Shown here: positions 16,635-64,000 of the stretch, piece by piece
Layout of the letters: the number at the start of each line of letters is the position of its first letter
Position numbering within the stretch: position 1 is the first letter of the stretch
DNA from: Agrobacterium fabrum str. C58
Lineage (GTDB): Bacteria; Pseudomonadota; Alphaproteobacteria; Rhizobiales; Rhizobiaceae
Assembly: GCF_000092025.1 (NCBI RefSeq)
Contig: NC_003064.2
Location: 248,001-312,000, forward strand
DNA length: 64,000 bases
Reading direction: 5' to 3'
Position numbers and translations under genes: made by a program
The notes under the pieces: generated by a model
Database searches by the model: none
Seen by the model: only the letters and a program-made list of their open reading frames with translations
What the model was told of the DNA's origin: nothing

Positions 16635-17056
16635 GGATGGTCCTCCTCCTGAAGAAGGGTAACTTCACCATCCAGAGATTGTTCCGAAGAAAAGTTGCAG
16701 TCTGTCGCTGCACCTTCTCAAGAGCGCGAATAGGAGGCGGCGTGCCGAGCCGCCCACCGCAGACTCGATCCGGCGATATCATGTAAGCGATCACATATGG
16801 CCGTAGAGCTGACGAGGTGGGAACCTTGCGATGAACTGTCCCGCTGAGGGAGAATTGTTTTATCTCAGCGCGGTCGAGCCCAAGAAGCAGGTTAAATGCC
16901 GTGCGATTATTCGGAGTACGTCACGCTTTTCCTCACTTTACAGATTTCCGAACCTCCTTCTCTATTTCGCCTTACGATCATGTCCGACAGGCTCGACTCG
17001 CCGTATAAAGTATTGTCAATTGAGGGTAAGTAAGAGCTAATGTGACGGAGGGCCGC
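16635..17056. promoter_or_regulatory. Divergent promoter interval between sugar importer and two-component system
   Basis: A 422-nt non-coding interval between divergently read operons. Its right half is AT-rich (about 16900-17040) and should contain the kinase promoter. GGAGG at 17047-17051 is the kinase ribosome-binding site. I see no clear palindromic operator. Confidence 0.4.
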
Positions 17057-27486: not shown

Positions 27487-28350
27487 TCAGATCATGATCT
27501 CGCCGCCGGTCACGGGAATGACGGCTCCCGTCATGTAGCTTCCCAGATCCGAAGCAAGCAGGACGTAGGCTCCTGCGAGCTCTGCCGGCTGCCCGGCACG
27601 GCCAATGAGGGTATTCTCTCCAAACTTGGCAGCCTTTTCAGCGGGCATGGTCGAGGGAATGAGAGGGGTCCAGATCGGCCCCGGTGCGACCGCATTCACG
27701 CGAATACCTTTTTCCGCCAGCATTTCCGCCAGACCCGCAGTGAAGTTGGATATCGCGCCCTTTGTGGAAGCGTAGGCGAGAAGTTGAGGCGAGGGCTGCC
27801 GCGACTGAATTGAGGTCGTGTTGATGATCGAGCTACCCGGTTTCATGTGGGGAGCGGCCGCTTTCGACAGGAAGAAAGGTGCATAGATGTTGGTGCGAAA
27901 AGTTTCGTCCCACTCCTCGGCGGTGATGTCGGCTATATCGTCATAGGTTCGCTGGAACGCTGCGTTGTTCACGAGAATGTCGACAGCACCGAGCTCATTG
28001 ACGGCGCGATGTACGAGATTCTTGCAATGTTCCTCAGACTTGATGTCGCCGGGTACCAACAAAGCTCCTTGGCCGGCTTCCTTTACCCACTTTGCAGTGT
28101 CGCGGGCGTCATCGTCCTCGTTGAGGTAGGAAATGACGATGTCGGCGCCTTCTCGCGCAAAAGCAATGGCGACAGCCTTGCCAATTCCTGAATCGGCTCC
28201 GGTGATGAGGGCAACCCTGCCTTTCAGCTTACCGTCACCCACGTAGGACTGTTCACCATGATCCGGGATGGGTTTCATCTCGGCTGTCTTGCCCGGTGGC
28301 TCCTGCTGTTGTTCCGGATAGGGCGGGGTAGGGTGTCGGGTGTCTTCCAT
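27487..28350 (-). CDS. Short-chain dehydrogenase/reductase, YghA-like general-stress oxidoreductase
   Basis: A 287-residue SDR. The NAD(P)-binding TGADSGIGKAVAIAFAREG, the NNAAFQRTYDDI motif, the Ser of the active site and YASTKGAISNFTAGL (Tyr-Lys) are all present. The N-terminus is a 45-residue proline- and charge-rich extension (HPTPPYPEQQQEPPGKTAEM) typical of the YghA/YdaD type. AGGAGAGAAAAC lies before the ATG. A GGAAC-N17-GTT promoter ends 33 nt upstream, so it belongs to the general stress regulon of this region. Confidence 0.94.
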   Translation of the reverse strand: MEDTRHPTPPYPEQQQEPPGKTAEMKPIPDHGEQSYVGDGKLKGRVALITGADSGIGKAVAIAFAREGADIVISYLNEDDDARDTAKWVKEAGQGALLVPGDIKSEEHCKNLVHRAVNELGAVDILVNNAAFQRTYDDIADITAEEWDETFRTNIYAPFFLSKAAAPHMKPGSSIINTTSIQSRQPSPQLLAYASTKGAISNFTAGLAEMLAEKGIRVNAVAPGPIWTPLIPSTMPAEKAAKFGENTLIGRAGQPAELAGAYVLLASDLGSYMTGAVIPVTGGEIMI

Positions 28351-28382: not shown

Positions 28383-28407
28383 AACCATCGCGGGCGCTCC
28401 GGGTTCC
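28383..28407 (-). promoter_or_regulatory. EcfG/RpoE2-type promoter for the SDR gene
   Basis: On the minus strand GGAAC (28407-28403), a 17-nt spacer, then GTT (28385-28383). This exactly matches the alphaproteobacterial EcfG consensus. It lies 33 nt before the SDR start codon. Confidence 0.8.
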
Positions 28408-28532
28408 ACAGGAATGATTTCTAGACAGGGCAGGTAACGTCAGTCGGCGGCTGTGCTCTCTCCCCCGAACATTTACGGTTATCGCCACCCGCATAATTGA
28501 AATTGGAAACTGCTCGCTTTCGCCTTACCGCT

Positions 28533-28557
28533 AACCTCGGAACCAACGCATAGTTCC
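28533..28557 (-). promoter_or_regulatory. Second minus-strand EcfG-type promoter, overlapping a plus-strand one
   Basis: GGAAC (28557-28553), 17 nt, GTT (28535-28533) on the minus strand. It is interleaved with the plus-strand site at 28539-28563 and would read towards the SDR about 180 nt away. Confidence 0.6.
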
Positions 28558-28563
28558 ATTGTT
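28539..28563 (+). promoter_or_regulatory. EcfG/RpoE2-type promoter for the iron permease gene
   Basis: GGAAC (28539-28543), 17 nt, GTT (28561-28563). The start codon of the iron permease follows 86 nt later. It overlaps an equally good site on the other strand. Confidence 0.75.
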
Positions 28564-28649
28564 GGAGGACCCAAGACGCGTCGTGCCCTGGCTAACTGTC
28601 CAGTCTTCTGGCGGTCAGGTCCCCGTTGTCAGCAGCGAGGTGCAGCACC

Positions 28650-29057
28650 GTGAACAAGTTCTTTACGCTTTTTGCGAGCCGTACTGCCTCTTTTGCCGGC
28701 TCATCGACTGCTTTTGTCGTCGCGTTCGGCACCGTCATCGCCTGGGGCATAAGCGGGCCTTTCTTCGGGTTTTCTGAAGTCTGGCAGCTGGTAATCAACA
28801 CTGGTACGACCATTGTGACATTTCTAATGATTTTCCTCGTACAGAACTCGCAGAACCGAGATTCTGCTGCAATGGAAGCAAAGCTGGACGAACTCTTGAG
28901 GGCTGTGGAGCAGGCGCGCGCGGATTTTATCGGAATCGAGCATCTCACGGCCCAAGAAATCGAGGATATCCGTGCTCGACTGGAAAAGGAGAACGGACAT
29001 GGAGGCGAGAAGCCGTCGCCACATCATGCCATGGCGCGATTGCTTTCCCGGCGTTAG
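28650..29057 (+). CDS. Low-affinity iron permease family protein
   Basis: A 135-residue membrane protein of the low-affinity iron permease family. Two helices are evident (FVVAFGTVIAWGISGPFFGF and VINTGTTIVTFLMIFLVQNS), the latter followed by the conserved QNRDSAAMEAKLDELLRAVE cytoplasmic segment, which is diagnostic. GAGG at 28637-28640 favours GTG 28650 as start; the longer reading begins with TTG. It is expressed from an EcfG-type promoter. The transported ion is uncertain, since bacterial members are poorly characterised. Confidence 0.85.
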   Translation: MNKFFTLFASRTASFAGSSTAFVVAFGTVIAWGISGPFFGFSEVWQLVINTGTTIVTFLMIFLVQNSQNRDSAAMEAKLDELLRAVEQARADFIGIEHLTAQEIEDIRARLEKENGHGGEKPSPHHAMARLLSRR

Positions 29058-29225
29058 GTCGGACAGTTTCCCGGATAGCGGCGGTGGCAGCCATCTGCCG
29101 CCACTCATAGCCGCAACGGACGGCGTATAAAAACGACAGATAGCCCGTTAGCCACGCCGCGCCGGGCGCGCGGGTACGGCAATAATCCGGCTGAGACGGC
29201 ATTTTCCCTTCCACTAATTATTTTC

Positions 29226-29250
29226 GGAACTCTCCGCATTTCGGTTTGTT
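29226..29250 (+). promoter_or_regulatory. EcfG/RpoE2-type promoter for the leader ORF and DUF892 gene
   Basis: GGAAC (29226-29230), 17-nt spacer, GTT (29248-29250). A 24-codon leader ORF and the ferritin-like gene follow at 29348 and 29424. Confidence 0.78.
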
Positions 29251-29347
29251 TGGAAAGCGCCCATGCCGTCCGAGACCGGTTTCAGCCTACTGGAGGAAAC
29301 TCCGTAAGGGAGGCTCGCAAGCATGTTTCTAGTGGAGGAAAAACCAG

Positions 29348-29422
29348 ATGAAGAAAACTGTTGCCTTGCTCCTCGGTGGGAGTGGGCTTTTGGCTTACCG
29401 CCACCAAGCAACAGGAGATTGA
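29348..29422 (+). CDS. 24-residue small ORF coupled to the DUF892 gene
   Basis: ATG 29348 to TGA 29420-29422 encodes 24 residues beginning MKKTVALLLGGSGLLAY and ending with a short polar tail. GGAGG at 29334-29338, 9 nt before the ATG, is a strong ribosome-binding site. The stop is one base before the ATG of the ferritin-like gene, whose own ribosome-binding site lies inside this ORF, so translation is probably coupled. It may be a leader peptide or a tiny membrane-associated protein. I do not recognise a family. Confidence 0.55.
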   Translation: MKKTVALLLGGSGLLAYRHQATGD

Positions 29423-29423
29423 A

Positions 29424-29924
29424 ATGGCTGAGAAGACATTGAAAGACCTTTTCCTCGATACGGTGAAGGACATTTATTTCGCCGAGCGGCAGATCCTGAA
29501 GGCGCTCCCAAAGATGGCGCGGGCTGCGCAGTCAGCGGATCTGAAGGCCGCCTTCGAAAAGCACAGGGACGAGACCGAGGTTCATGTGGAGCGTTTGCAG
29601 AATGTCTTTGAGTTTCTCGGCAAGCCGGCACGCGGCAGGACCTGTGAGGCGATCCAGGGCATTATCGCGGAAGGCGAGGAGATCATGGAGGAGTTCAAGG
29701 GGTCATCAGCGCTGGATGCTGGGCTGATTTCATCAGCCCAGGCGGTAGAGCACTACGAGATCACCCGTTACGGCACTTTGAAGACCTGGGCGGTCGAACT
29801 GGGCATGAAAGAAGCAGCCAAGCTGTTCGAACAGACGCTGGGCGAAGAGAGCGCGACGGATACGGCTCTCTCATCGCTTGCTCAGGCAAGGGCCAACATC
29901 AAGGGAAAATCCAAAGCAGCGTGA
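29424..29924 (+). CDS. Ferritin-like DUF892 protein (YciE/YciF family)
   Basis: A 166-residue four-helix protein. TLKDLFLDTVKDIYFAERQI followed by LPKMARAAQSADLKAAFEKH is the YciE/YciF signature; the Glu/His residues (E in YFAERQ, E-x-x-H in RDETEVHVERL, and E-x-x-x in AQAVEHYEI) are placed as in ferritin-like diiron sites. AGGAG lies 8 nt before ATG 29424. Members are general stress proteins. It is expressed from the EcfG-type promoter at 29226 and closed by a strong terminator at 29933. Confidence 0.93.
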   Translation: MAEKTLKDLFLDTVKDIYFAERQILKALPKMARAAQSADLKAAFEKHRDETEVHVERLQNVFEFLGKPARGRTCEAIQGIIAEGEEIMEEFKGSSALDAGLISSAQAVEHYEITRYGTLKTWAVELGMKEAAKLFEQTLGEESATDTALSSLAQARANIKGKSKAA

Positions 29925-29932
29925 CCCGTCAT

Positions 29933-29966
29933 ACGGACGTGCCGCTGAAACCGGCGGCACGTCCGT
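29933..29966 (+). terminator. Strong hairpin terminator after the DUF892 gene
   Basis: A perfect 12-bp stem (ACGGACGTGCCG / CGGCACGTCCGT) with a 10-nt loop, followed by TATGAAATATTTCTTT. The gene stop is 9 nt upstream. Confidence 0.75.
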
Positions 29967-29998
29967 TATGAAATATTTCTTTCATGCGAGGTTGAATC

Positions 29999-30658
29999 AT
30001 GAGGCTGGTACGCGACAATGGATTGACGATTGTCCTTGTCCTGACTTCCCTGTTAACGATCGGAGGCATGCTCGCGACCGGCTGGGCTGTTTACAATAAG
30101 GAGCTTGTGCAGCATCACGCGACGCCGCTCACACTATTCTCTTACGCAAGAAGCGGCCATTTCCTTTCCGCACTGTTCGAAAACTGGGAGAGCGAATTTT
30201 TGCAAATGTCGGCGTATGTCATGCTGACCGCTTTTCTGTTTCAACGAGGCTCGTCCGAATCCAAAAACCCCGACGAGCCATCTTCACAGGATGAAGACCC
30301 TGCGCAAAAAGCAGATGATACCGAGGCGCCCTGGGCAGTGAGAGCAGGGGGATTTATCCGCGCCATCTATTCCTACTCTTTGGGGCTTGCCCTGTTCTTC
30401 CTTTTTGTTGTCAGTTTTGTCCTGCATCTGAAATACAATGCCGACGCGGCTGCCCTGGAGACTGCCATGCACGGCAATCCCGAGACGACGCTGTTTTCGC
30501 ATCTGGGAAGTACAGAGTTCTGGTTTGAATCGTTTCAGAACTGGCAATCGGAGTTTCTTTCGACCGCAGTTCTTGTGGTTCTTTCGATCTTCCTGCGCTT
30601 CCGTGGGTCACCGGAATCGAAACCCGTCGCCGCGCCTCACAGCGAGACCGGCGGATAG
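29999..30658 (+). CDS. DUF6766-like integral membrane protein
   Basis: A 219-residue protein with four predicted helices in two similar halves. Each half carries a helix, a region with FENWESEFLQM or FQNWQSEFLST, and another hydrophobic helix (residues about 9-29 and 62-78, then 123-145 and 185-200). A polar, acidic linker (ESKNPDEPSSQDEDPAQKAD) separates the halves, suggesting internal duplication. GAGG lies before ATG 29999. It ends 12 nt before the hydrolase gene. Function is unknown; its place in a stress island is the only clue. Confidence 0.8.
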   Translation: MRLVRDNGLTIVLVLTSLLTIGGMLATGWAVYNKELVQHHATPLTLFSYARSGHFLSALFENWESEFLQMSAYVMLTAFLFQRGSSESKNPDEPSSQDEDPAQKADDTEAPWAVRAGGFIRAIYSYSLGLALFFLFVVSFVLHLKYNADAAALETAMHGNPETTLFSHLGSTEFWFESFQNWQSEFLSTAVLVVLSIFLRFRGSPESKPVAAPHSETGG

Positions 30659-30670
30659 AGGGGGAGGGAA

Positions 30671-31297
30671 TTGATCGAGTTTTCTGCGGAGGGGGACTGG
30701 CGGCACCTGTGCGTCGACATGCAGCGTGTCTTCGCTGAAGATACGCCGTGGCACGTCGAATGGATGGACCGCATCAGTGAAGAGGTTGAGGTTGTGGTTG
30801 CGAGCGACCCCGCGCGATGCATCTTCACCTGTTTTGTGCCGCCTAGGTCTGTAGGGGAGGCCCGTGGGGCATGGCGAGCCTATTATGAAAAATGGCCGAT
30901 GATGACACAGCAGGCCCTGGCTCCCGAACTCATCGAGGTCATCCCTTCGTTATCGCGCTACATCCCGCCCGCCCGCATCTTCCGCAAAAGCGTCTATTCA
31001 CCGTGGCAACATGGAGGCCTCGGCGAAATCCTGCGGCAGGAGCAGGTTTCGACCCTGGTGATTACCGGCGGGGAAACAGATGTCTGCGTGCTCGCTACTG
31101 TGCTTGGGGCGATCGACCAAGGATTTTACGTCATTCTGGTCGAGGATGCACTTTGCAGCGGAAGGGACGCAACACATGATGCAGCCATGAAGCTGCTCTC
31201 GGGTCGTTTTTCAACGCAACTGCAGGTATGCGATACGGCAACGCTCCTTCAGGCGCTTCCACCGAAGAAAGGAGCTAGATTGCCCGAGATAAGTTAG
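30671..31297 (+). CDS. Isochorismatase-family cysteine hydrolase
   Basis: A 208-residue cysteine hydrolase. The catalytic triad is visible as D16 (LCVDMQRVF), K106 ([10 protein letters not shown]) and C139 ([11 protein letters not shown]). The family includes nicotinamidases and N-carbamoyl amidases. It begins with TTG 30671 after GAGGGGGAGGG, and no ATG in frame is better placed. The same frame stays open for 60 codons beyond the TAG stop (see the next entry). Confidence 0.88.
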
Positions 31298-31480
31298 GCC
31301 ACCCGGGCCGCGACCCCAAAGGTAATCAAAATCATTGTGGGCAAGCGCACGGTACTTGAGGGTATCCTCAACACTGGCAGTGTTCTGACGGTCAAGACAC
31401 GAAAGCGCGCCGAACCTCAATCCATCGAGCTTACAATCGGCGACCTGGCGCCTAAGGTTAGGACTCCGGGACCGGGTTAA
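31298..31480 (+). pseudogene. 60-codon open frame directly after the isochorismatase stop
   Basis: The frame of the preceding hydrolase continues without interruption from 31298 to TAA 31478-31480. The reading contains PKVIKIIVGKRTVLEGILN followed by TGSVLTVKTRKRAEPQS, which looks protein-like (alternating hydrophobic strands, Lys/Arg). It has no ATG; an internal GTG near 31336 would give 48 residues. It could be a fragment of another gene or a read-through extension. I do not recognise a family. Confidence 0.35.
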
Positions 31481-31707
31481 CCCCTGAAATCGCCCTCGTC
31501 AGCGTCTCGCTCGTCGTAGTTCAAGTCCCAGTCTTTTTCGGGTTTTTTGGCTCCGGGTGGCAGCTTGTTGGCTGTTGCGTCGTCGGACCCGGTGATAACG
31601 CGCGGCTTTGCACTCACCACGCCGTTGTTATCAGAGGTTTTTTTGCCGCGCGCAAATTGCGGTTCGCTGTCCTTGTGAATCTGCTTCAGCTTTTCGTCCT
31701 TGTTCAT
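31477..31707 (-). CDS. Small hydrophilic stress protein
   Basis: A 76-residue highly charged protein (start MNKDEKLKQIHKDSEPQFAR, end DLNYDERDADEGDFRG) with no hydrophobic core and likely disordered. AAGGAGGACACG is directly before the ATG. An EcfG-type promoter at 31731-31755 ends 24 nt upstream. Family is unknown; small acidic hydrophilic proteins of this kind are common in alphaproteobacterial stress regulons. Confidence 0.7.
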   Translation of the reverse strand: MNKDEKLKQIHKDSEPQFARGKKTSDNNGVVSAKPRVITGSDDATANKLPPGAKKPEKDWDLNYDERDADEGDFRG

Positions 31708-31730
31708 CGTGTCCTCCTTGATCCTTTACT

Positions 31731-31755
31731 AACCGTTTTCCCGCGTCACTGTTCC
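31731..31755 (-). promoter_or_regulatory. EcfG/RpoE2-type promoter for the 76-residue protein
   Basis: GGAAC (31755-31751), 17-nt spacer, GTT (31733-31731) on the minus strand, 24 nt before the start codon. It is back-to-back with the plus-strand site at 31776. Confidence 0.78.
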
Positions 31756-31775
31756 CTCAAAGCCTTTATCGGGCT

Positions 31776-31800
31776 GGAACTGCCTTCAGATGCCGCAGTT
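31776..31800 (+). promoter_or_regulatory. EcfG/RpoE2-type promoter for a 58-residue protein
   Basis: GGAAC (31776-31780), 17-nt spacer, GTT (31798-31800). Divergent from the site at 31731-31755. Confidence 0.75.
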
Positions 31801-31852
31801 AGACCGCCGGATGAATCCATTTATTCCGCGATCCCCAAGCGGTGATGAAGCG

Positions 31853-32029
31853 ATGAATCAGCCAGACGAAGATATCAAGCCAGAACCCGGTACAGATGAT
31901 GCCTTCTACCGGAACGGCCACGAAAGCTGCCAAGACAGGGAACAAAGGAGAAAAAACGCCGAACTTATGATTGATCAGAGGCCGCAGCGGCTGTCAGCTG
32001 GCGGCGCGGAAAACGCCGATCAATTGTAG
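31853..32029 (+). CDS. Small hydrophilic protein in the stress island
   Basis: A 58-residue acidic and polar protein starting MNQPDEDIKPEPGTDDAFYR. The ATG at 31853 is preceded by a weak GGTGATG; an alternative ATG is at 31811. The strongest support is the exact EcfG-type promoter at 31776-31800, which has no other gene downstream. No family is recognised. Confidence 0.5.
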   Translation: MNQPDEDIKPEPGTDDAFYRNGHESCQDREQRRKNAELMIDQRPQRLSAGGAENADQL

Positions 32030-32159
32030 GAACTAACGCTTGGAGCGGTTCAACTGTTCGAACACCGACGCGGGAGAGTTACTGATTTTGCGATTGTACG
32101 TTGGCGTACGGCAGCCAAGCGTCTCGCGAGACATTTTTCCATCGTGAAAGGATAGAAAA

Positions 32160-32683
32160 ATGGCCAAGCACGCTGTGAGTGGAGTTTCCGGAAACACATT
32201 GAATGATACGCAGCTAGAGGTGTTGCGTATCGGTATTTCAGACCTGGCGCCGGCCCTGCGGTTTTTGCCCGCCGCTTCGTCAGAAATGAGGAGGATGTCG
32301 ATGATCTCGTTCGAGAGACGATGTTGCGAGGACTGAGGGCTCTACACGGTTTTACTCCCGGTACGGCATTAAAATCATGGCTCTTTACCATTTTGCGCAA
32401 CACGTTCTGCACCCGCTACAAGGTGTCTAAACGCGAATGTGTAGGCTTGCCCGTTGGTATCGAGCAAACCATGTCTACCCCTGCCAGCCGGGAATGGCAT
32501 GTGCAGCATCAGGAAGCCATGCGGGCGATACGGGATCTCGACAAGGATCAGAAAAAAGCTCTCCTGCTTGTCGCCGGAGGGACGAGTTACTCCGATGCTG
32601 CGGCGATTTGCGGCTGCCGGGTTGGCACCATCAAAAGCCGGGTCAACAGGGCAAGGGAATCGCTACGGCGCAATCTTGACTAA
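32160..32683 (+). pseudogene. EcfG-like ECF sigma factor with a one-base frameshift
   Basis: ATG 32160 (GAAAGGA upstream) opens a frame whose first 34 codons end SDLAPALR; at the T5 run 32262-32266 the continuation in the -1 frame gives FARRFVRNEEDVDDLV, the region 2.1-2.2 of ECF sigma factors, then KSWLFTILRNTFCTRYK and the region 4 helix-turn-helix AAAICGCRVGTIKSRVNRAR. The 174-residue fused reading is normal in length. Either one T has been lost (pseudogene or assembly error), or slippage on the T-run restores the frame. It resembles EcfG (ECF15) sigma factors, whose promoters fill this region. The plain zero-frame product would be truncated. Confidence 0.75.
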
Positions 32684-32767
32684 AGCATTTCCGGTGAAAA
32701 TCGGATCTGCGGAAATGACCTTTCTCTTTGTTTTTACGCAGTCCGAACCCAATTTGCTGGACATGCG

Positions 32768-34552
32768 TTAGCGGCCTGCATAGATCGCAAATTGCGCCGC
32801 ATAACCTTCGTATCGCGTGTTACCGACGCTGCCGTTCCGGTGAAGGATTTCTCCTTTCACCGCCGGCAGTTCGCACATGTTTTCCGAAAGGTTTGCCCGC
32901 ATTTCCAGCCGTCCCGCTTTGAAATGCCAGTCGATTGCAAGACACCGAGGCTCGCAATCAAGGGAAATGCCTTTCTCGAAGTGTGAGCAGAGGAGAGGCC
33001 AGATGTGCCCGCGGCGTTTTGCAAGCAACGCGGCCATGTCTGCTCTTGACTGTCTCCCCTCGGTTGTTTCTGCATGGGTCCACTTCAGTGTAGAGAGCTG
33101 CATGGTGTGCTGATCATTCGGGTCCATTACCATCTGGGAAGCATCTGGCGGGAGTTCTCCCTGAAAACTTTCCGCCTGTTTAAGCCGGTTCCTTATTTCC
33201 TGTTCCCGGTTGTGGTCGGGGTGGTCGGAAAAGAAGAAGAACGGGTTGGCCGAGCCGTGCTCGTCCCCCATGAAGACCAGCGGCGTCTGCGGGCAAAGCA
33301 AGAGGATCGCCTCGAGCGTGCCGAAAAGCGGCGGCGGTATGAGGGCACGCAGCCTCTCACCGCGCAAACGGTTGCCGGCCTGATCGTGATTATGGAGAAA
33401 GTTCACAAATCGATGGGGCGGGAGATGCCCGCTCGGCTCGCCGCTGGCGGCAAAATTCCGAGAGGGCCGCGGTTCTCCCTGATAGACGAAGCCGGTCGCC
33501 AGCGAGCGGCGAAGATTTTCATAGGGCCGACTGGCGAAATCTTCGTAGATACCGCCCTCTTCGTTCGTGGTCGCCACGTGGATGACGTGGTGAAAATCGT
33601 CGTTCCACTGCGCATCGACCAAGATCGCCCCATCGGCCATGGGTGTCATTGGCGAGGCCGCGTTTCTCGCATCCTCTATGACCAGATGCACATGCCTGTT
33701 TCTTATTGTGCGCTTCACCTCCCGCGCCATCTCAATAAGGAAATCAACCTCTCCGTCGCCGCCAGCGAGATGATCTGCGGCATCGATCCGCAATCCGTCA
33801 AAGCGATAGGTCTCGAGCCAGTAGAATGCATTCTGAAGAAAGAACGACCGAACTTCGGCACGGTTGAAGTCCGGCGCGGGTCCCCACGGTGTCTCATGCT
33901 TCTTGAAAAATGCCGGCGCGTAGGCCTGAAGGGTATTTCCTGCGGGGCCGAAGTGATTGTAGACGACATCCAACAGCACCATGATGCCATGGCCATGGGC
34001 TTGATCAATGAAAGCCTTGAGCTCGTCTGGAGTGCCATAATCCCGCTGCGGTGAAAATTGCAGGACGCCGTCGTAACCCCAGCCGCGACTTCCAGCAAAG
34101 GTCGCAAGCGGCATAAGTTCGATGGTGGTAATGCCCACGTCTGCAAGATATTCAAGTTTCTCTGCCGCGGCGGCAAAGGTGCCCTCGGGTGTAAAAGTCC
34201 CGATATGGAGCTCATAGACGACTGCTTCGTGCCAAGGCCGGCCCTTCCAGTTCGGGTTTTTCCAGGCGAAATCATGGTTGACGATCAGGGAGGGGCCACG
34301 CGGGCCTTCCTGCTGCCGGTTGGAAGCGGGATCTGCAACCCTCGTCCTGTCGGCCAGCACGAAGCCATAGCGATCGCCGGGGAGGGCGGGTTTTGTGATG
34401 TCGTGCCAGCCATCACCAGCCGTGTGCATGTCGAATTCCGCATCGTTCAGCCACAGTTTCACTGTTGCCGAGGCGGGTGCCCAGATGCTGAAATCCGTGT
34501 CGCCGGATTGATGGCGCTGCGCACCCCATTTGCGATAATTCGCTGCATTCAT
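32768..34552 (-). CDS. treZ: Malto-oligosyltrehalose trehalohydrolase
   Basis: A 594-residue family 13 glycoside hydrolase. An N-terminal beta domain (WGAQRHQSGDTDFSIWAPAS) precedes the barrel. FDGLRIDAADHL gives the nucleophile D257, HLVIEDARN the acid/base E293, and FLHNHDQAGNR the stabilising Asp, all as in TreZ. The enzyme releases trehalose from maltooligosyl-trehalose made by TreY. GGAGG 8 nt before ATG 34552 sets the start. It lies 26 nt after glgA in one operon. No treY is in the window. Confidence 0.94.
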   Translation of the reverse strand: MNAANYRKWGAQRHQSGDTDFSIWAPASATVKLWLNDAEFDMHTAGDGWHDITKPALPGDRYGFVLADRTRVADPASNRQQEGPRGPSLIVNHDFAWKNPNWKGRPWHEAVVYELHIGTFTPEGTFAAAAEKLEYLADVGITTIELMPLATFAGSRGWGYDGVLQFSPQRDYGTPDELKAFIDQAHGHGIMVLLDVVYNHFGPAGNTLQAYAPAFFKKHETPWGPAPDFNRAEVRSFFLQNAFYWLETYRFDGLRIDAADHLAGGDGEVDFLIEMAREVKRTIRNRHVHLVIEDARNAASPMTPMADGAILVDAQWNDDFHHVIHVATTNEEGGIYEDFASRPYENLRRSLATGFVYQGEPRPSRNFAASGEPSGHLPPHRFVNFLHNHDQAGNRLRGERLRALIPPPLFGTLEAILLLCPQTPLVFMGDEHGSANPFFFFSDHPDHNREQEIRNRLKQAESFQGELPPDASQMVMDPNDQHTMQLSTLKWTHAETTEGRQSRADMAALLAKRRGHIWPLLCSHFEKGISLDCEPRCLAIDWHFKAGRLEMRANLSENMCELPAVKGEILHRNGSVGNTRYEGYAAQFAIYAGR

Positions 34553-34578
34553 CACCAGAGCCTCCTGTTGCCGGTGGC

Positions 34579-36108
34579 CTAACCTGTTGGTGATCCTGGG
34601 GTTCCCGCCAGCCGCCTATCAGCTCTTATCTTTGCAAAAGTCTCGGTTCTGATGTCGGCGACGGCATCCGTTTCGCGCGTGCTGTTGCCGACAAGGCTCT
34701 CGAAAAGCGCCATATATTGTGCGGCACTCTTGTCCCAGGAAAAATTGGCCTGCATGGCCTGCGTCTGAAGCCGTCGGAAAAGTTCCCGGTCGTTATAGGC
34801 GCTAATGGCACGCTCCAGCGCGGCGCGCAGATCGTCTTCATTCGCCGGCTCGAATTGAAAGCCTGTTGCTACGCCCGCTTCAATGGCCGCGTCATTCGCG
34901 TCGATAATGGTTTCCGCCAGCCCGCCCGTGCGGCTGACGATGGGCAGCGCGCCGTATCGCAGCGCGTAAAGCTGCGTCAGCCCGCAGGGTTCGAACCGTG
35001 ACGGCTGGATGATGAAATCCGAGCCGGCCTGGATCATGTGCGCCAGCCGTTCGTCATAGCCGATATGGGCGCAGACTAGTTCCGGATAGCGCTTTGCCAG
35101 CGCCTGCAAGCTGTCTTCCAGTGCCGTATCTCCCTCTCCGTGAACGATCAGCCTGCCTTTCCTTTCTATTATAAGGGGTACGACGTGAGGGAGGAGATCG
35201 ATTCCCTTTTGCCAGGTCAGGCGACTGACCACGCCGAAGACAGGGCCCTGGGTAGGGGCTAGGCCAAGGGCCTGAAGCAAGGCATATTTGTTGAGGCTCC
35301 GTCTTGTCGCCGTGGCAGCCGTGAAATTTGCGAGAATGTACGGATCTGTTGCCGGATTCCAGACGTCGTGATCGACACCGTTGACGATGCCGCGCAGGTC
35401 CCCTCGCCGCCTGGCGAGCACGCCATGCATTCCCATCCCCATTTCCGGCGTAAGGATTTCTCTTGCATAAGTTGGACTAACCGTCGTTACCGCCGACGCG
35501 GTCGTCAGACCGCCCTTCAAAAATGACATGTCATCGTAATATTCAAGGCAATCGACAGTGCAGAGGTGCGAGGGTAGTCCAAGCATACCCGCCCTCTCCA
35601 GCGGATACTGACCCTGAAATGCGAGATTGTGAAGGGTTAGAACGGAGGCTACCGAGGGCGTCGAATCCGCGAGATAGACGCAGGTCAGAGCCGCGTGCCA
35701 ATCATGGACATGGACAACATCCGGCTGCCAGCCGTCAATCGCGCCGAGGGCTATTTCCGCCGCTACTTTGGACAGAACCGCAAAGCGAAGATCGTTGTCA
35801 GCAAAAGGCTCGCCTTTTACGCCATAGGGATGTCCGTCTCTGTCGAACAGGCTTGCCGCTTCAAGAAGCAGAAGCTTGTGACCATCGGAAACAACGTAAT
35901 AAACTGATACCGGCTGCTCCAGAATATTGGCAACCAGGACCGGCTTCCGGCCGCGGACAAGCGGCGTGAGCCCGCGGTAGAGGGGTAGCAATGTCCGAAC
36001 GTCAGCCCCTTTTCGTTCCAGCGCCTGCGGCAAAGCGCTCGTGGCATCGGCCAATCCGCCGGTTTTGACGAAGGGAAACATTTCGGCCGTAACGGCAAGA
36101 ATCCGCAT
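34579..36108 (-). CDS. glgA: Glycogen synthase (ADP-glucose type)
   Basis: A 509-residue GT5 glycosyltransferase, slightly longer than usual. The N-terminal MRILAVTAEMFPFVKTGGLA contains the K-T-G-G-L ADP-glucose motif, and the C-terminal half has TWQKGIDLLPHVVP, PSRFEPCGLTQLYALRYG and SRTGGLAETI. GGAGG lies before ATG 36108. It transfers glucose from ADP-glucose to alpha-1,4-glucan, the precursor for TreY/TreZ trehalose synthesis. A 58-residue gene with an EcfG-type promoter lies 94 nt upstream, so the operon is probably stress-induced. Confidence 0.95.
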   Translation of the reverse strand: MRILAVTAEMFPFVKTGGLADATSALPQALERKGADVRTLLPLYRGLTPLVRGRKPVLVANILEQPVSVYYVVSDGHKLLLLEAASLFDRDGHPYGVKGEPFADNDLRFAVLSKVAAEIALGAIDGWQPDVVHVHDWHAALTCVYLADSTPSVASVLTLHNLAFQGQYPLERAGMLGLPSHLCTVDCLEYYDDMSFLKGGLTTASAVTTVSPTYAREILTPEMGMGMHGVLARRRGDLRGIVNGVDHDVWNPATDPYILANFTAATATRRSLNKYALLQALGLAPTQGPVFGVVSRLTWQKGIDLLPHVVPLIIERKGRLIVHGEGDTALEDSLQALAKRYPELVCAHIGYDERLAHMIQAGSDFIIQPSRFEPCGLTQLYALRYGALPIVSRTGGLAETIIDANDAAIEAGVATGFQFEPANEDDLRAALERAISAYNDRELFRRLQTQAMQANFSWDKSAAQYMALFESLVGNSTRETDAVADIRTETFAKIRADRRLAGTPGSPTG

Positions 36109-36201
36109 TTGGCGCCTCCGGGAACGCAGTGATTTCAGATGGTGGGGAGCCCGGAAACAGGTTGGTGACAACCAAGCCGCCAGCCGGGAACAGGCGGGCG
36201 C

Positions 36202-36378
36202 TCACCTGTCCTGCTGGTGGCGGTGATGAGTCATATTTATGTTTGCCTGTCTGCCCGTCTGCGTCGAAGCCTCCTGTTCCTTCACAGGACAGGTATCTTC
36301 CGTGCTCAGACGGTCACTGACACCGAGACCTTGCTGGCTATGGTTTCTTTCAGGAATGGGGAGTGCTTTCCTGGTCAT
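36202..36378 (-). CDS. Small hydrophilic protein upstream of glgA
   Basis: A 58-residue polar protein starting MTRKALPIPERNHSQQGLGV and ending in a His/Gln-rich tail. GAGGTG precedes ATG 36378, and an exact EcfG-type promoter stands 40 nt before the start. It probably leads the glgA-treZ operon. No family is recognised. Confidence 0.6.
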   Translation of the reverse strand: MTRKALPIPERNHSQQGLGVSDRLSTEDTCPVKEQEASTQTGRQANINMTHHRHQQDR

Positions 36379-36417
36379 GTTACACCTCGTCGGGCATGAG
36401 TGCAGTAGAGCGAACCA

Positions 36418-36442
36418 AACCGTACTTTCCCCTGTTTGTTCC
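36418..36442 (-). promoter_or_regulatory. EcfG/RpoE2-type promoter upstream of the glgA-treZ operon
   Basis: GGAAC (36442-36438), 17-nt spacer, GTT (36420-36418) on the minus strand. Confidence 0.78.
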
Positions 36443-37105
36443 CCTTGTCCGCCAAGTTTTATGGCACGGACAAGTAATCCCGCGCGTGAACCAAGGGGCA
36501 GGAACGTTCCGCCTACAGGCATGGCGAGATACTGGATCATCCGAAAGTTGAGCAGCGCCCTTTTGGACGGAATCAAGACCGCAACCTGGGCACCATGCCA
36601 GGCGCAATTCATGGATGTCAGCCGATACGCAACTTTGTTCGAAAATAGAGAGCGGGCAATTGCTGAAGTTTTGACGGATCGACAACACCGCGATCGAACG
36701 TTCTCAGGACATAGCGGGCGAATGCGGCCAGCCTCGCCTGCTGCCGGCGCTTTGGGTTTGAGATTCTGCCCAAGTCGGATGTAAACGGCTTGCTCCTGTC
36801 GCGCGTGGCGGACCTACGGGTTGAGGGACGCGAGTTCATGCGGCTTCTAGGTCGAGGCTGCAAACAAGATATCGCTCGTTTTCTTCGACTAGATCGTAGT
36901 AAAAGCTGCGAGGTGGCTGATCGAGACCACTGGTCCCGAACAGGGTTTGACGCGAGCTCAGATATGCCGTGACGCTGACAAACAATCGTCTCCAGGCATG
37001 ACCACACGTAGCCGCGCCGGGGTTGGCGCACGCGTTAGGTCACATCGACTATCTCGGCGTGAGCTTCAAGGTGACAGAGCGCCGTGTGGCGCCCTGTCTA
37101 GTCGA
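36443..37105. other. Interval without a recognised gene
   Basis: About 660 nt. A 137-codon minus frame (36618-37031) ends with LRTFDRGVVDPSKLQQLP, which looks protein-like and may be the C-terminal remnant of a larger gene, but I cannot assign it. Its N-terminal part is Arg/Ser-rich and unconvincing. No repeat or RNA gene recognised. Confidence 0.35.
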
Positions 37106-37705
37106 TTACAGGCCCGCACGCCGATAGCGCAGGCGTTCCTGCTCGATCTGGGCTGCATCATAGGGGTCGAGCGCGTCGTCGAAACGCGTCCAACCCTGCT
37201 CTTCGTAGGCAACTCGGCGTGCGGCCGGATCCACCCAGTTCGAGCGCTTGAGGATCGCCTCGGCTTCCGAGACCAGTGCGTCGTCGACCTTGGCGGTGAC
37301 GAGGGTTCCGCCGCGGCGAACACCCTCCGCATATACGTGGGCATCATGTTCGGAGACACCGGAGCTCGTCATCGCTCCAATGATGCCGCCGGTCGCACCG
37401 CCCGCGACTGCCCCAGCCGCAGCACCCGCAGCTGTCGCAGCCAGCCAGCCAGCGGCAACAACGGGACCGACGCCCGGTATCGCCATCAGACCCAGGCCGG
37501 TCAATAGCCCGCCAGCACCACCAACGACCGCGCCGATGCCGGCGCCGGTTCCGGCGCCTTCGGCTGCATTGGAATCGCCATGACGCTTATCAGCGTTATT
37601 GGAGACGATGCTGATATCGTCGGAGCGCACGCCAGCGGATTCGAGCGCGCTAACCGCAGCACTCGCATCGCTGTAGTCGTCAAACAGTCCAGTCACAGTT
37701 CTCAT
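37106..37705 (-). CDS. Glycine-zipper general stress protein (YflT/GSP17M-like N-terminus)
   Basis: A 199-residue protein. Residues 1-40 resemble the small stress domain of Bacillus YflT/GSP17M (TVTGLFDDYSDASAAVSALE). The middle is a Gly/Ala-rich, glycine-zipper hydrophobic tract (GTGAGIGAVVGGAGGLLTGL and AAGAVAGGATGGIIGAM) likely to insert in or associate with membrane. The C-terminus has VSEHDAHVYAEGVRRGGTLV, typical of the family. AAGGAGATCAAA precedes the ATG. It follows the exported protein at 37721 by 15 nt in one operon. Confidence 0.88.
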   Translation of the reverse strand: MRTVTGLFDDYSDASAAVSALESAGVRSDDISIVSNNADKRHGDSNAAEGAGTGAGIGAVVGGAGGLLTGLGLMAIPGVGPVVAAGWLAATAAGAAAGAVAGGATGGIIGAMTSSGVSEHDAHVYAEGVRRGGTLVTAKVDDALVSEAEAILKRSNWVDPAARRVAYEEQGWTRFDDALDPYDAAQIEQERLRYRRAGL

Positions 37706-37720
37706 TTTGATCTCCTTGGG

Positions 37721-38038
37721 TTACTTGGCGACCACGTTGCCTTGGTAGTCGAGGGCGATCGAGACGGCTTTGCCGTCCTTCATACCCGCCGCGTTCCAAA
37801 TACCTTTGTCGTCCTTCTTCAGGTCCTTGACGTCGCTATAACCAGCCTTTTCGATGCGGTCCTTGGCCTGAGCTTCGGTAAAGCTATTGGCGCCTTCGAC
37901 CGGTGCGGTCGGGTTCTTCGTGTCAGGGGTAGCAACGGCCGGCGTATCGCCGTTGTTGTTGGCGGTCGGAGCGGTCTGGGCGAAGGCCGAAATGGACGTG
38001 GCGGAAAAGAGCGCGGCGGCAAAAATGGCGTTTTTCAT
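37721..38038 (-). CDS. Small exported protein with PepSY-like fold
   Basis: A 105-residue protein. A signal peptide (MKNAIFAAALFSATSISAFA) is cleaved before QTAPTANNN, then follows a Thr/Ala/Pro-rich linker and a 50-residue domain SFTEAQAKDRIEKAGYSDVK with KDDKGIWNAAGMKDGKAVSI and ALDYQGNV, resembling the PepSY-like domain of small periplasmic proteins. GAGGAAG precedes ATG 38038. An EcfG-type promoter ends 48 nt upstream and serves this gene and the following stress protein. Confidence 0.8.
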   Translation of the reverse strand: MKNAIFAAALFSATSISAFAQTAPTANNNGDTPAVATPDTKNPTAPVEGANSFTEAQAKDRIEKAGYSDVKDLKKDDKGIWNAAGMKDGKAVSIALDYQGNVVAK

Positions 38039-38085
38039 AGGGCTTCCTCTCGTGTTCGGAACTTCGTGAACGGATCCGGTGAGAT

Positions 38086-38110
38086 AACCCCGCTGCAAGC
38101 TGATGGTTCC
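38086..38110 (-). promoter_or_regulatory. EcfG/RpoE2-type promoter for the exported protein operon
   Basis: GGAAC (38110-38106), 17-nt spacer, GTT (38088-38086) on the minus strand, 48 nt before the start at 38038. Confidence 0.78.
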
Positions 38111-63645: not shown

Positions 63646-64000
63646 GGTCCGTTACAGAACGGCTCCGGCAAGAGCTGGGGATTTGGCATGGTGAGTGTGA
63701 GGGGTCATTGAATGCTCGATGTATCGAAGAAGCCATCCAGCAGATCCTCGAAGATTATATGTCGGGTCGTCTCCTATTCCCAAAAGTAAATCCCCCAACG
63801 CCAGCCGCGTGGACGAAATCGAGCAACATGTTTAAAGACGCCGGTAAATCAAGAGGGGAACTAAAATTCTGCCGCGCGTTCCCCTTCTCCTGCCTTTCTA
63901 AGCTCGTGAGCTTGATAAGCTGCTGCCTGAACCTCCTGTGTTTTGTTGGAACAACCTGTACCGACGGTTGACCCAATCGACCGCCCAGATGCTCCCCAAT
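63646..64000. other. Window end without a recognised gene
   Basis: 355 nt after the ATPase. A small inverted repeat (CCGTT / AACGG) lies at 63650-63663. An 87-codon plus frame (63708) and a 73-codon minus frame overlap but neither shows a family motif. The sequence may be part of a gene beyond the window. Confidence 0.35.

Follow-up and report, generated by a model that had tools for sequence, protein, structure and literature searches.

A cluster of GGAAC-N17-GTT sites on an Agrobacterium fabrum C58 plasmid most likely marks a second general stress response with its own promoter variant

The window, a 64,000-nucleotide stretch of the Agrobacterium fabrum str. C58 plasmid contig NC_003064.2 (G000:C3:248001-312000), carries a compact set of stress genes preceded by nine sites of the form GGAAC-N17-GTT. 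This segment, around window positions 28,383 to 38,110, is called the island here. The cluster is real and, judged from sequence comparison, most likely belongs to a second arm of the general stress response that uses a promoter variant of its own. We consider it likely that a second stress sigma factor uses a separate promoter code, GGAAC-N16-[G/T]GTT-N-G (abbreviated KGTTnG, with K for G or T). The island would then be a stress module, here plasmid-borne, built around an orphan sigma factor of the EcfG2 type, a non-canonical EcfG. This sigma factor would direct RNA polymerase to such promoters before a compact stress-gene set and, in some relatives, upstream of the sigma gene itself. Three features would separate island promoters from the chromosomal type, GGAAC-N16/17-CGTT: a base before GTT that is rarely C, a G at the second position after GTT (+2) and a nearly fixed spacer.

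The original prediction, made from the letters of the window, listed eight GGAAC-N17-GTT sites. All eight were present with exactly this spacer, and three further matches had been missed, namely 34581(-), 16661(-) and 58478(+). With 34581, which lies upstream of treZ, the island total was nine. The nine island sites and one outlying candidate were as follows.

28383..28407, minus strand: GGTT site without G at +2, 33 nt upstream of the SDR gene; a weak member
28533..28557, minus strand: GGTTAG site, 183 nt upstream of the SDR gene, overlapping the divergent site 28539; also in locus L191
28539..28563, plus strand: TGTTGG site, 87 nt upstream of the iron permease gene; motif in 5 of 5 loci bearing an ortholog
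29226..29250, plus strand: TGTTTG site, 174 nt upstream of the DUF892 gene; homologous to the promoter that relatives have before PepSY-YflT-catE-DUF892
31731..31755, minus strand: GGTTAG site, 24 nt upstream of a gene for a 76-amino-acid hydrophilic protein; 12 of 12 loci bearing an ortholog
31776..31800, plus strand: AGTTAG site, upstream of a small open reading frame (ORF) and the sigma gene
34581..34605, minus strand: GGTTAGG site, 29 nt upstream of the annotated treZ start, in the 3' end of glgA; 7 of 7 loci bearing an ortholog
36418..36442, minus strand: GGTTTG site, 40 nt before a start, upstream of a 58-codon ORF and glgA; 6 of 6 loci bearing an ortholog, at most 700 nt from glgA
38086..38110, minus strand: GGTT site without G at +2, 48 nt before a start, upstream of PepSY-YflT; a weak member
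16661..16685, minus strand: AGTT site lacking G at +2; the ATG of an ORF resembling a sugar-binding protein (named by eye) follows after 27 nt; outlying candidate

Both strands were scanned for the pattern and compared with shuffled and flanking sequence. The window held 11 matches, while 100 shuffles gave a mean of 1.58 and a maximum of 6. Spacers one base shorter or longer were not enriched in the window: N16 gave two matches, both strands of one palindrome near 63.86 kb, and N18 gave none. Of the 542,868 bases of the plasmid contig, 542,800 were scanned; they held 29 matches at N17 and 11 to 24 at the other spacers from 13 to 22. Nine of these 29 fell within 9.7 kb (276.4-286.1 kb), where 0.36 were expected from the rest of the contig (Poisson P 2e-10, for an interval chosen after it was seen and uncorrected for that choice). 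Across the whole genome the bare motif was not enriched (181 matches, 176 for the reversed control), and it is therefore the cluster, not the bare motif, that constitutes the finding. Bare-motif counts over whole genomes were dropped as a test of the island, being too noisy.

Among the nine island sites, GTT was preceded by G in six, by T in two and by A in one, but never by C, and seven of the nine had G at +2. The -35 box GGAAC was present by construction of the pattern, and the canonical -10 box CGTT occurred at 0 of 9. Six sites (28533, 28539, 29226, 31731, 34581 and 36418) fit the extended motif in full, and 31776 keeps the G at +2 but carries A in front of GTT. Sites 28383 and 38086, both without G at +2, are the weakest and are doubtful members. 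Over the whole contig, KGTTnG was fitted ten times, with six fits in the island, two beside a second sigma gene copy (477034 and 483595) and two elsewhere. The sites had been read as promoters of the EcfG/RpoE2 type. They do look like real promoters for an EcfG-like sigma and stand before stress genes, but none is of the ordinary CGTT type. Seven of the eight had also been placed 24 to 100 nt before a suitably oriented start. This was correct for 28383, 28539, 31731, 36418 and 38086 (distances as listed above), but 29226 lies farther from DUF892, the nearer ATG being the start of a short remnant ORF, and 31776 overlaps the annotated start (31790) of its own gene. Since the -10 box of 31776 overlaps that start, 31790 is probably wrong and 31853 is the likelier start. 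Site 28533, set apart in the original prediction, does lie far from the SDR gene, yet it fits the extended motif.

For comparison, 8 of the 42 records matching the island (H7, H8, H9, H11, H12, H16, H20 and H37) and 5 of the 308 records from a search with the sigma gene (H68, H73, H77, H79 and H86) were taken. Of 209 confirmed places, 80 were kept and all 80 were scanned for the motif; 6 orphan and 14 canonical loci were added later from the sigma-gene list. Fourteen orphan loci of the genus contained 92 matches at N17 and 4 to 17 at other spacers, and six further ones contained 39 and 0 to 8, respectively. One of these 20 loci, L191, has lost most of its sigma gene. The 131 N17 sites of the 20 loci had G (84), T (18), A (18) or C (11) before GTT. 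G was the second base after GTT in 118 of the 131, and 97 of the 131 fit KGTTnG, compared with 2.1 per decoy spacer. A hand-picked set from the sigma-gene list, 15 ecfG-nepR-phyR loci of the genus, had 41 N17 sites, with C before GTT in 36, T in 4 and G in 1. With the chromosomal cluster L099 included, KGTTnG occurred in 0 of 47 canonical sites. The N18 spacer was found 26 times in the canonical loci and 7 times in the orphan loci. The single sigma with tight spacing envisaged in the original prediction was a good inference, but the sigma is likely of the orphan EcfG2 type, and its gene in the island is broken.

Because sites are inherited, they were also collapsed into sequence families and counted once. 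C was the most frequent base in 8 of 62 orphan families (window included) but in 14 of 16 canonical families (L099 included), with P 3e-8. Four loci of the Rhizobium etli EcfG2 type gave 23 matches (two of them both strands of one palindrome), with G in 14, T in 5, A in 4 and C in none, and 0-3 matches at other spacers. Elsewhere on that R. etli plasmid, a 34-kb segment whose last 2 kb overlap the locus held one N17 match. KGTTnG had a density of 4.6 per 10 kb up to 2.5 kb from the sigma gene and of 1.8, 1.9 and 1.4 at successively greater distances.

Conservation was examined through gene orthology rather than through the motif, in the 20 loci of the genus and up to 220 nt from the start, or 700 nt in the case of glgA. 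A site preceded the 76-amino-acid gene in 12 of 12 loci, treZ in 7 of 7, glgA in 6 of 6, the iron permease gene in 5 of 5 and PepSY in 7 of 9, while the operon-internal controls DUF6766 and YflT had none in 6 and 9 loci, respectively. The first of these results bears out the claim that the sites support otherwise doubtful small genes (here 31477-31707). Three small controls say little (AraC 0/2, dienelactone hydrolase 0/1, SDR2 0/1), and for TetR1 and TetR2 no ortholog was found. In four annotated loci, of which 25% is intergenic, 29 of 31 sites were intergenic, compared with 9 of 19 at decoy spacers. Sites similar to the outlying 16661 were found in L192 and L195.

The sigma gene of the island is broken by a frameshift, and the window copy does not encode a functional sigma protein. 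The gene is annotated as one coding sequence in 12D13, LMG 292, CGMCC 11546 pA and DG3-1, where it was also matched in one piece. In L191, L216 and L217, near relatives of the island, 315 bp of it are lost (window 32256-32570), which points to decay. Programmed frameshifting at the T run of the lesion was set aside on this ground. An open paralogue lies on the same plasmid (G000:C3:479445-479966) and is 87% identical to the 12D13 protein. Since the island gene is frameshifted, we propose that this paralogue probably serves the island promoters in this strain, possibly helped by chromosomal EcfG. In strain BG5 the second sigma copy type is interrupted (L218, two tblastn pieces).

No match to nepR or phyR was found near the sigma gene in any of the 19 open Agrobacterium orphan loci or in 16 of 17 other orphan loci, L128 having a weak phyR-like match; short loci were covered to their ends, and L212-L215 were judged from annotation. 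Seven of 20 orphan loci lie on plasmid records or on contigs matching plasmid records (L040, L041, L042, L190, L191, L193 and the second copy on C3), four on contigs of 1.5-2.9 Mb (L192, L194, L195 and L196) and nine on unplaced draft contigs. The module with the orphan sigma is thus probably not confined to plasmids.

In a tree of 54 sigma proteins, all 40 orphans formed one branch that includes the EcfG2 of the R. etli type (Shimodaira-Hasegawa-like approximate likelihood ratio test, SH-aLRT, 100), and the R. etli-type proteins stood beside those of Agrobacterium (SH-aLRT 92). The tree came from a quick search with a long-branch warning. It held open copies, including the second plasmid copy but not the broken window copy, and sampled 19 Agrobacterium orphans, 21 other orphans, 8 of 15 Agrobacterium canonical proteins and 6 of 55 Bradyrhizobium-type canonical proteins. 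Among the 25 of 70 families listed for the orphan sigma, the general extracytoplasmic function (ECF) family was the only one whose cut-off it passed. Orphan and canonical proteins differ in sigma region 2: orphans have RN[TS]FC[TS] followed by R or N, with the exception of L123 (RNSFFTN), whereas RNEFYSQ or RNLFRSD stands there in the canonical sigmas listed. Outside the genus a few orphan proteins diverge further along, for example L125 and related ones (RNTFCTRYG). From where region 2.4 lies, our guess is that the RN[TS]FC[TS] stretch reads the base before GTT; a PDB search, with 5uxx_A ('RNA polymerase sigma factor') as the nearest chain, did not settle which residues do so.

The motif was also counted over whole genomes (61 scanned, the 24 of other genera being left out of the count). 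KGTTNG averaged 31.3 per genome in 13 members of the genus with the orphan sigma and 22.3 in 24 without it (P 0.0007), where presence means at least 58% identity and the 24 include distant orphan-like sigmas of up to 48%. The difference gave P 0.0013 per Mb and P 0.019 after subtraction of the reversed control; the controls alone gave P 0.64.

Several observations weigh against a separate code. The genome test partly restates the islands that supplied the motif, its excess being about one island, and the bare GGTT count, tallied by hand, separated the genomes weakly (48.8 and 43.6). Counts of GGTT against CGTT across the 61 genomes were dropped as a test, the difference being weak. Canonical loci of the Bradyrhizobium type were less clean, with C in 75, G in 23, A in 9 and T in 6 of 113 sites (C 28, G 16, A 5 and T 3 of 52 families), and 17 orphan loci outside Agrobacterium and R. 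etli were mixed (G 30, C 14, T 10 and A 7). Thirteen of the 19 open Agrobacterium orphan loci had no exact sigma-directed site within 600 nt; the other six had one, in all six cases GGTT. Isochorismatase, meant as a control, had the motif in 4 of 11 loci, these four being distant relatives (52-57% identical). SDR had it in 1 of 4, three being distant SDRs, and DUF892 itself in 2 of 11, at least partly because relatives such as L040 and L190 carry DUF892 downstream of PepSY-YflT-catE in an operon. R. etli katG, reported to depend on EcfG2, had no such site upstream in CIAT 652 and was set aside as an independent check of the motif; its control by EcfG2 may be indirect. In other bacteria, either EcfG paralogue of Sphingopyxis supported in vitro transcription from a GGTT promoter (PMC7083833), and the EcfG targets of Sphingomonas melonis include GGTT boxes (PMC6599016). 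Because GGTT boxes occur in these canonical regulons, the code need not be exclusive; the difference between CGTT and [G/T]GTT is a strong preference and not proof of exclusivity.

The Sphingopyxis result is also what favours reading the island sites as ordinary chromosomal EcfG promoters, controlled through PhyR and NepR, in which the base before GTT has drifted. The -35 box and spacer fit this reading, and so does the broken state of the island's own sigma gene. It is nevertheless unlikely, because the base in orphan-sigma loci is non-random (mostly G, with G at +2), because in the canonical loci of that genus C predominates and KGTTnG never occurs, and because orphan loci hardly ever show the longer spacer of the canonical ones. 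An arrangement in which both sigmas share promoters and the base before GTT tunes their ratio is more plausible, but we hold it to be somewhat less likely than not; it overlaps with a separate code and is compatible with it. The R. etli regulons overlap partly (11 genes), and -10 boxes in sphingomonads are flexible. In L118-L123 (6 of 6 loci), every exact sigma-directed site within 600 nt is CGTT (7 sites), suggesting a cascade in which canonical EcfG would switch on the second sigma. On the other side, each R. etli sigma prefers its own promoter, and in Agrobacterium there is a clear separation between the two kinds of site. Chance, or a constraint of composition or coding, would fit the genome-wide count of the bare motif and the position of the treZ site in coding sequence. 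For the island as a whole it is contradicted by the shuffles, the decoy spacers, the intergenic placement and the conservation before orthologs with changed spacers, and is highly improbable. It may hold for 28383, 38086 and 58478; the last has no nameable start within 300 nt and is probably a chance match.

With a second sigma and its own promoter code preferred, a broader statement about the Rhizobiaceae seems somewhat more probable than its opposite. There would be two general stress responses separated by code, CGTT for the chromosomal sigma and [G/T]GTT-N-G for the orphan EcfG2 clade. On plasmids the second could form a self-contained unit of sigma and targets, and the CGTT sites before the orphan sigma gene in L118-L123 would write the hierarchy into the DNA.

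Canonical EcfG (ECF15), with GGAAC-N16/17-CGTT, shares with the island the -35 box and the spacer class, and its target genes are of similar kinds. The island differs in having [G/T]GTT-N-G rather than CGTT, a nearly fixed spacer and a sigma without adjoining nepR/phyR. R. etli EcfG2 (PF00052) belongs to the same sigma branch and has no nepR/phyR match nearby, and the four R. etli-type plasmid loci have the same non-C base. Jans et al. 2013 gave GGAAC-N16-CGTT for R. etli EcfG1 and reported that plasmid-borne EcfG2 prefers its own promoter (PMC3892343). In that paper a search among EcfG2 targets found no motif, the EcfG2 subgroup was described as all plasmid-borne, unlike the four orphan loci on large contigs here, and half of the completed alphaproteobacterial genomes had at least two EcfG-like copies, the extra ones not being satisfactorily explained (PMC3892343). 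Vercruysse et al. 2011 noted two EcfG representatives in A. tumefaciens C58, one of them outside the conserved context (PMC3188799). Sinorhizobium meliloti RpoE5 (ECF15) is likewise a second ECF15 sigma off the main chromosome, but its overexpression yielded a single putative target, and the rpoE5 promoter as printed has no GGAAC-N17-GTT match (PMC6180224). Sphingopyxis EcfG1 and EcfG2 are also two paralogues, with flexible -10 boxes including GGTT, but both use the same promoters (PMC7083833). A paper on R. etli and S. meliloti networks names EcfG2 and gives no motif in the parts covered (PMC11387232), and start-site data for A. fabrum C58 have been published (PMC10469942).

We found no prior description of GGAAC-N16-[G/T]GTT-N-G in the open-access library searched. 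The island supplies a concrete candidate motif for the second sigma, where the R. etli search gave none. Such a motif would allow genes to be assigned from sequence to either stress response. The island also suggests that stress tolerance may be passed on as a module that brings a sigma factor along.

The genes of the island were as follows.

27487..28350, minus strand: SDR oxidoreductase
28650..29057, plus strand: low-affinity iron permease
29424..29924, plus strand: DUF892 ferritin-like protein
29999..30658, plus strand: DUF6766 protein
30671..31297, plus strand: isochorismatase-like hydrolase
31477..31707, minus strand: 76-amino-acid hydrophilic protein, no family found
31853..32029, plus strand: hydrophilic ORF of 58 amino acids before the sigma gene, annotated as 31790-32029, start re-proposed from site 31776
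32160..32683, plus strand: EcfG2-type ECF sigma gene, frameshifted, as two ORFs (32160-32336 and 32321-32683)
32768..34552, minus strand: treZ
34579..36108, minus strand: glgA
36202..36378, minus strand: ORF of 58 amino acids before glgA, a similar ORF being annotated at the same place in L217; no family found
37106..37705, minus strand: YflT-domain general stress protein
37721..38038, minus strand: PepSY-domain protein

The ncbifam library gave no family for the three small island proteins, a tRNA scan of window 20-45 kb found none, and no papers on the island genes were found through locus tags guessed from position. The island sequence is identical to the pAt plasmid of seven Agrobacterium fabrum records. 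Of 41 genomes, 5 had a match to the DUF6766 protein, all within the genus, and the island is therefore accessory.

Some minor observations were also made. A palindromic GGAAC-N16-GTT on both strands at window 63857-63882 is probably due to chance. A second hot spot of six sites, five of them CGTT, lies on the chromosome (G000:C1:1213579-1223060) near a photolyase-like gene (named by eye) and resembles a canonical stress cluster. The overlapping divergent sites at window 28533-28563 share a common inverted repeat, GGAAC-N9-GTTCC. Window 29215-29362 aligns with L040 2686-2836, the operon promoter, and the window then skips about 3.2 kb to the DUF892 leader. At window 29215-29424, the PepSY-YflT-catE-DUF892 promoter of the relative thus stands directly before DUF892, with a short remnant ORF left.

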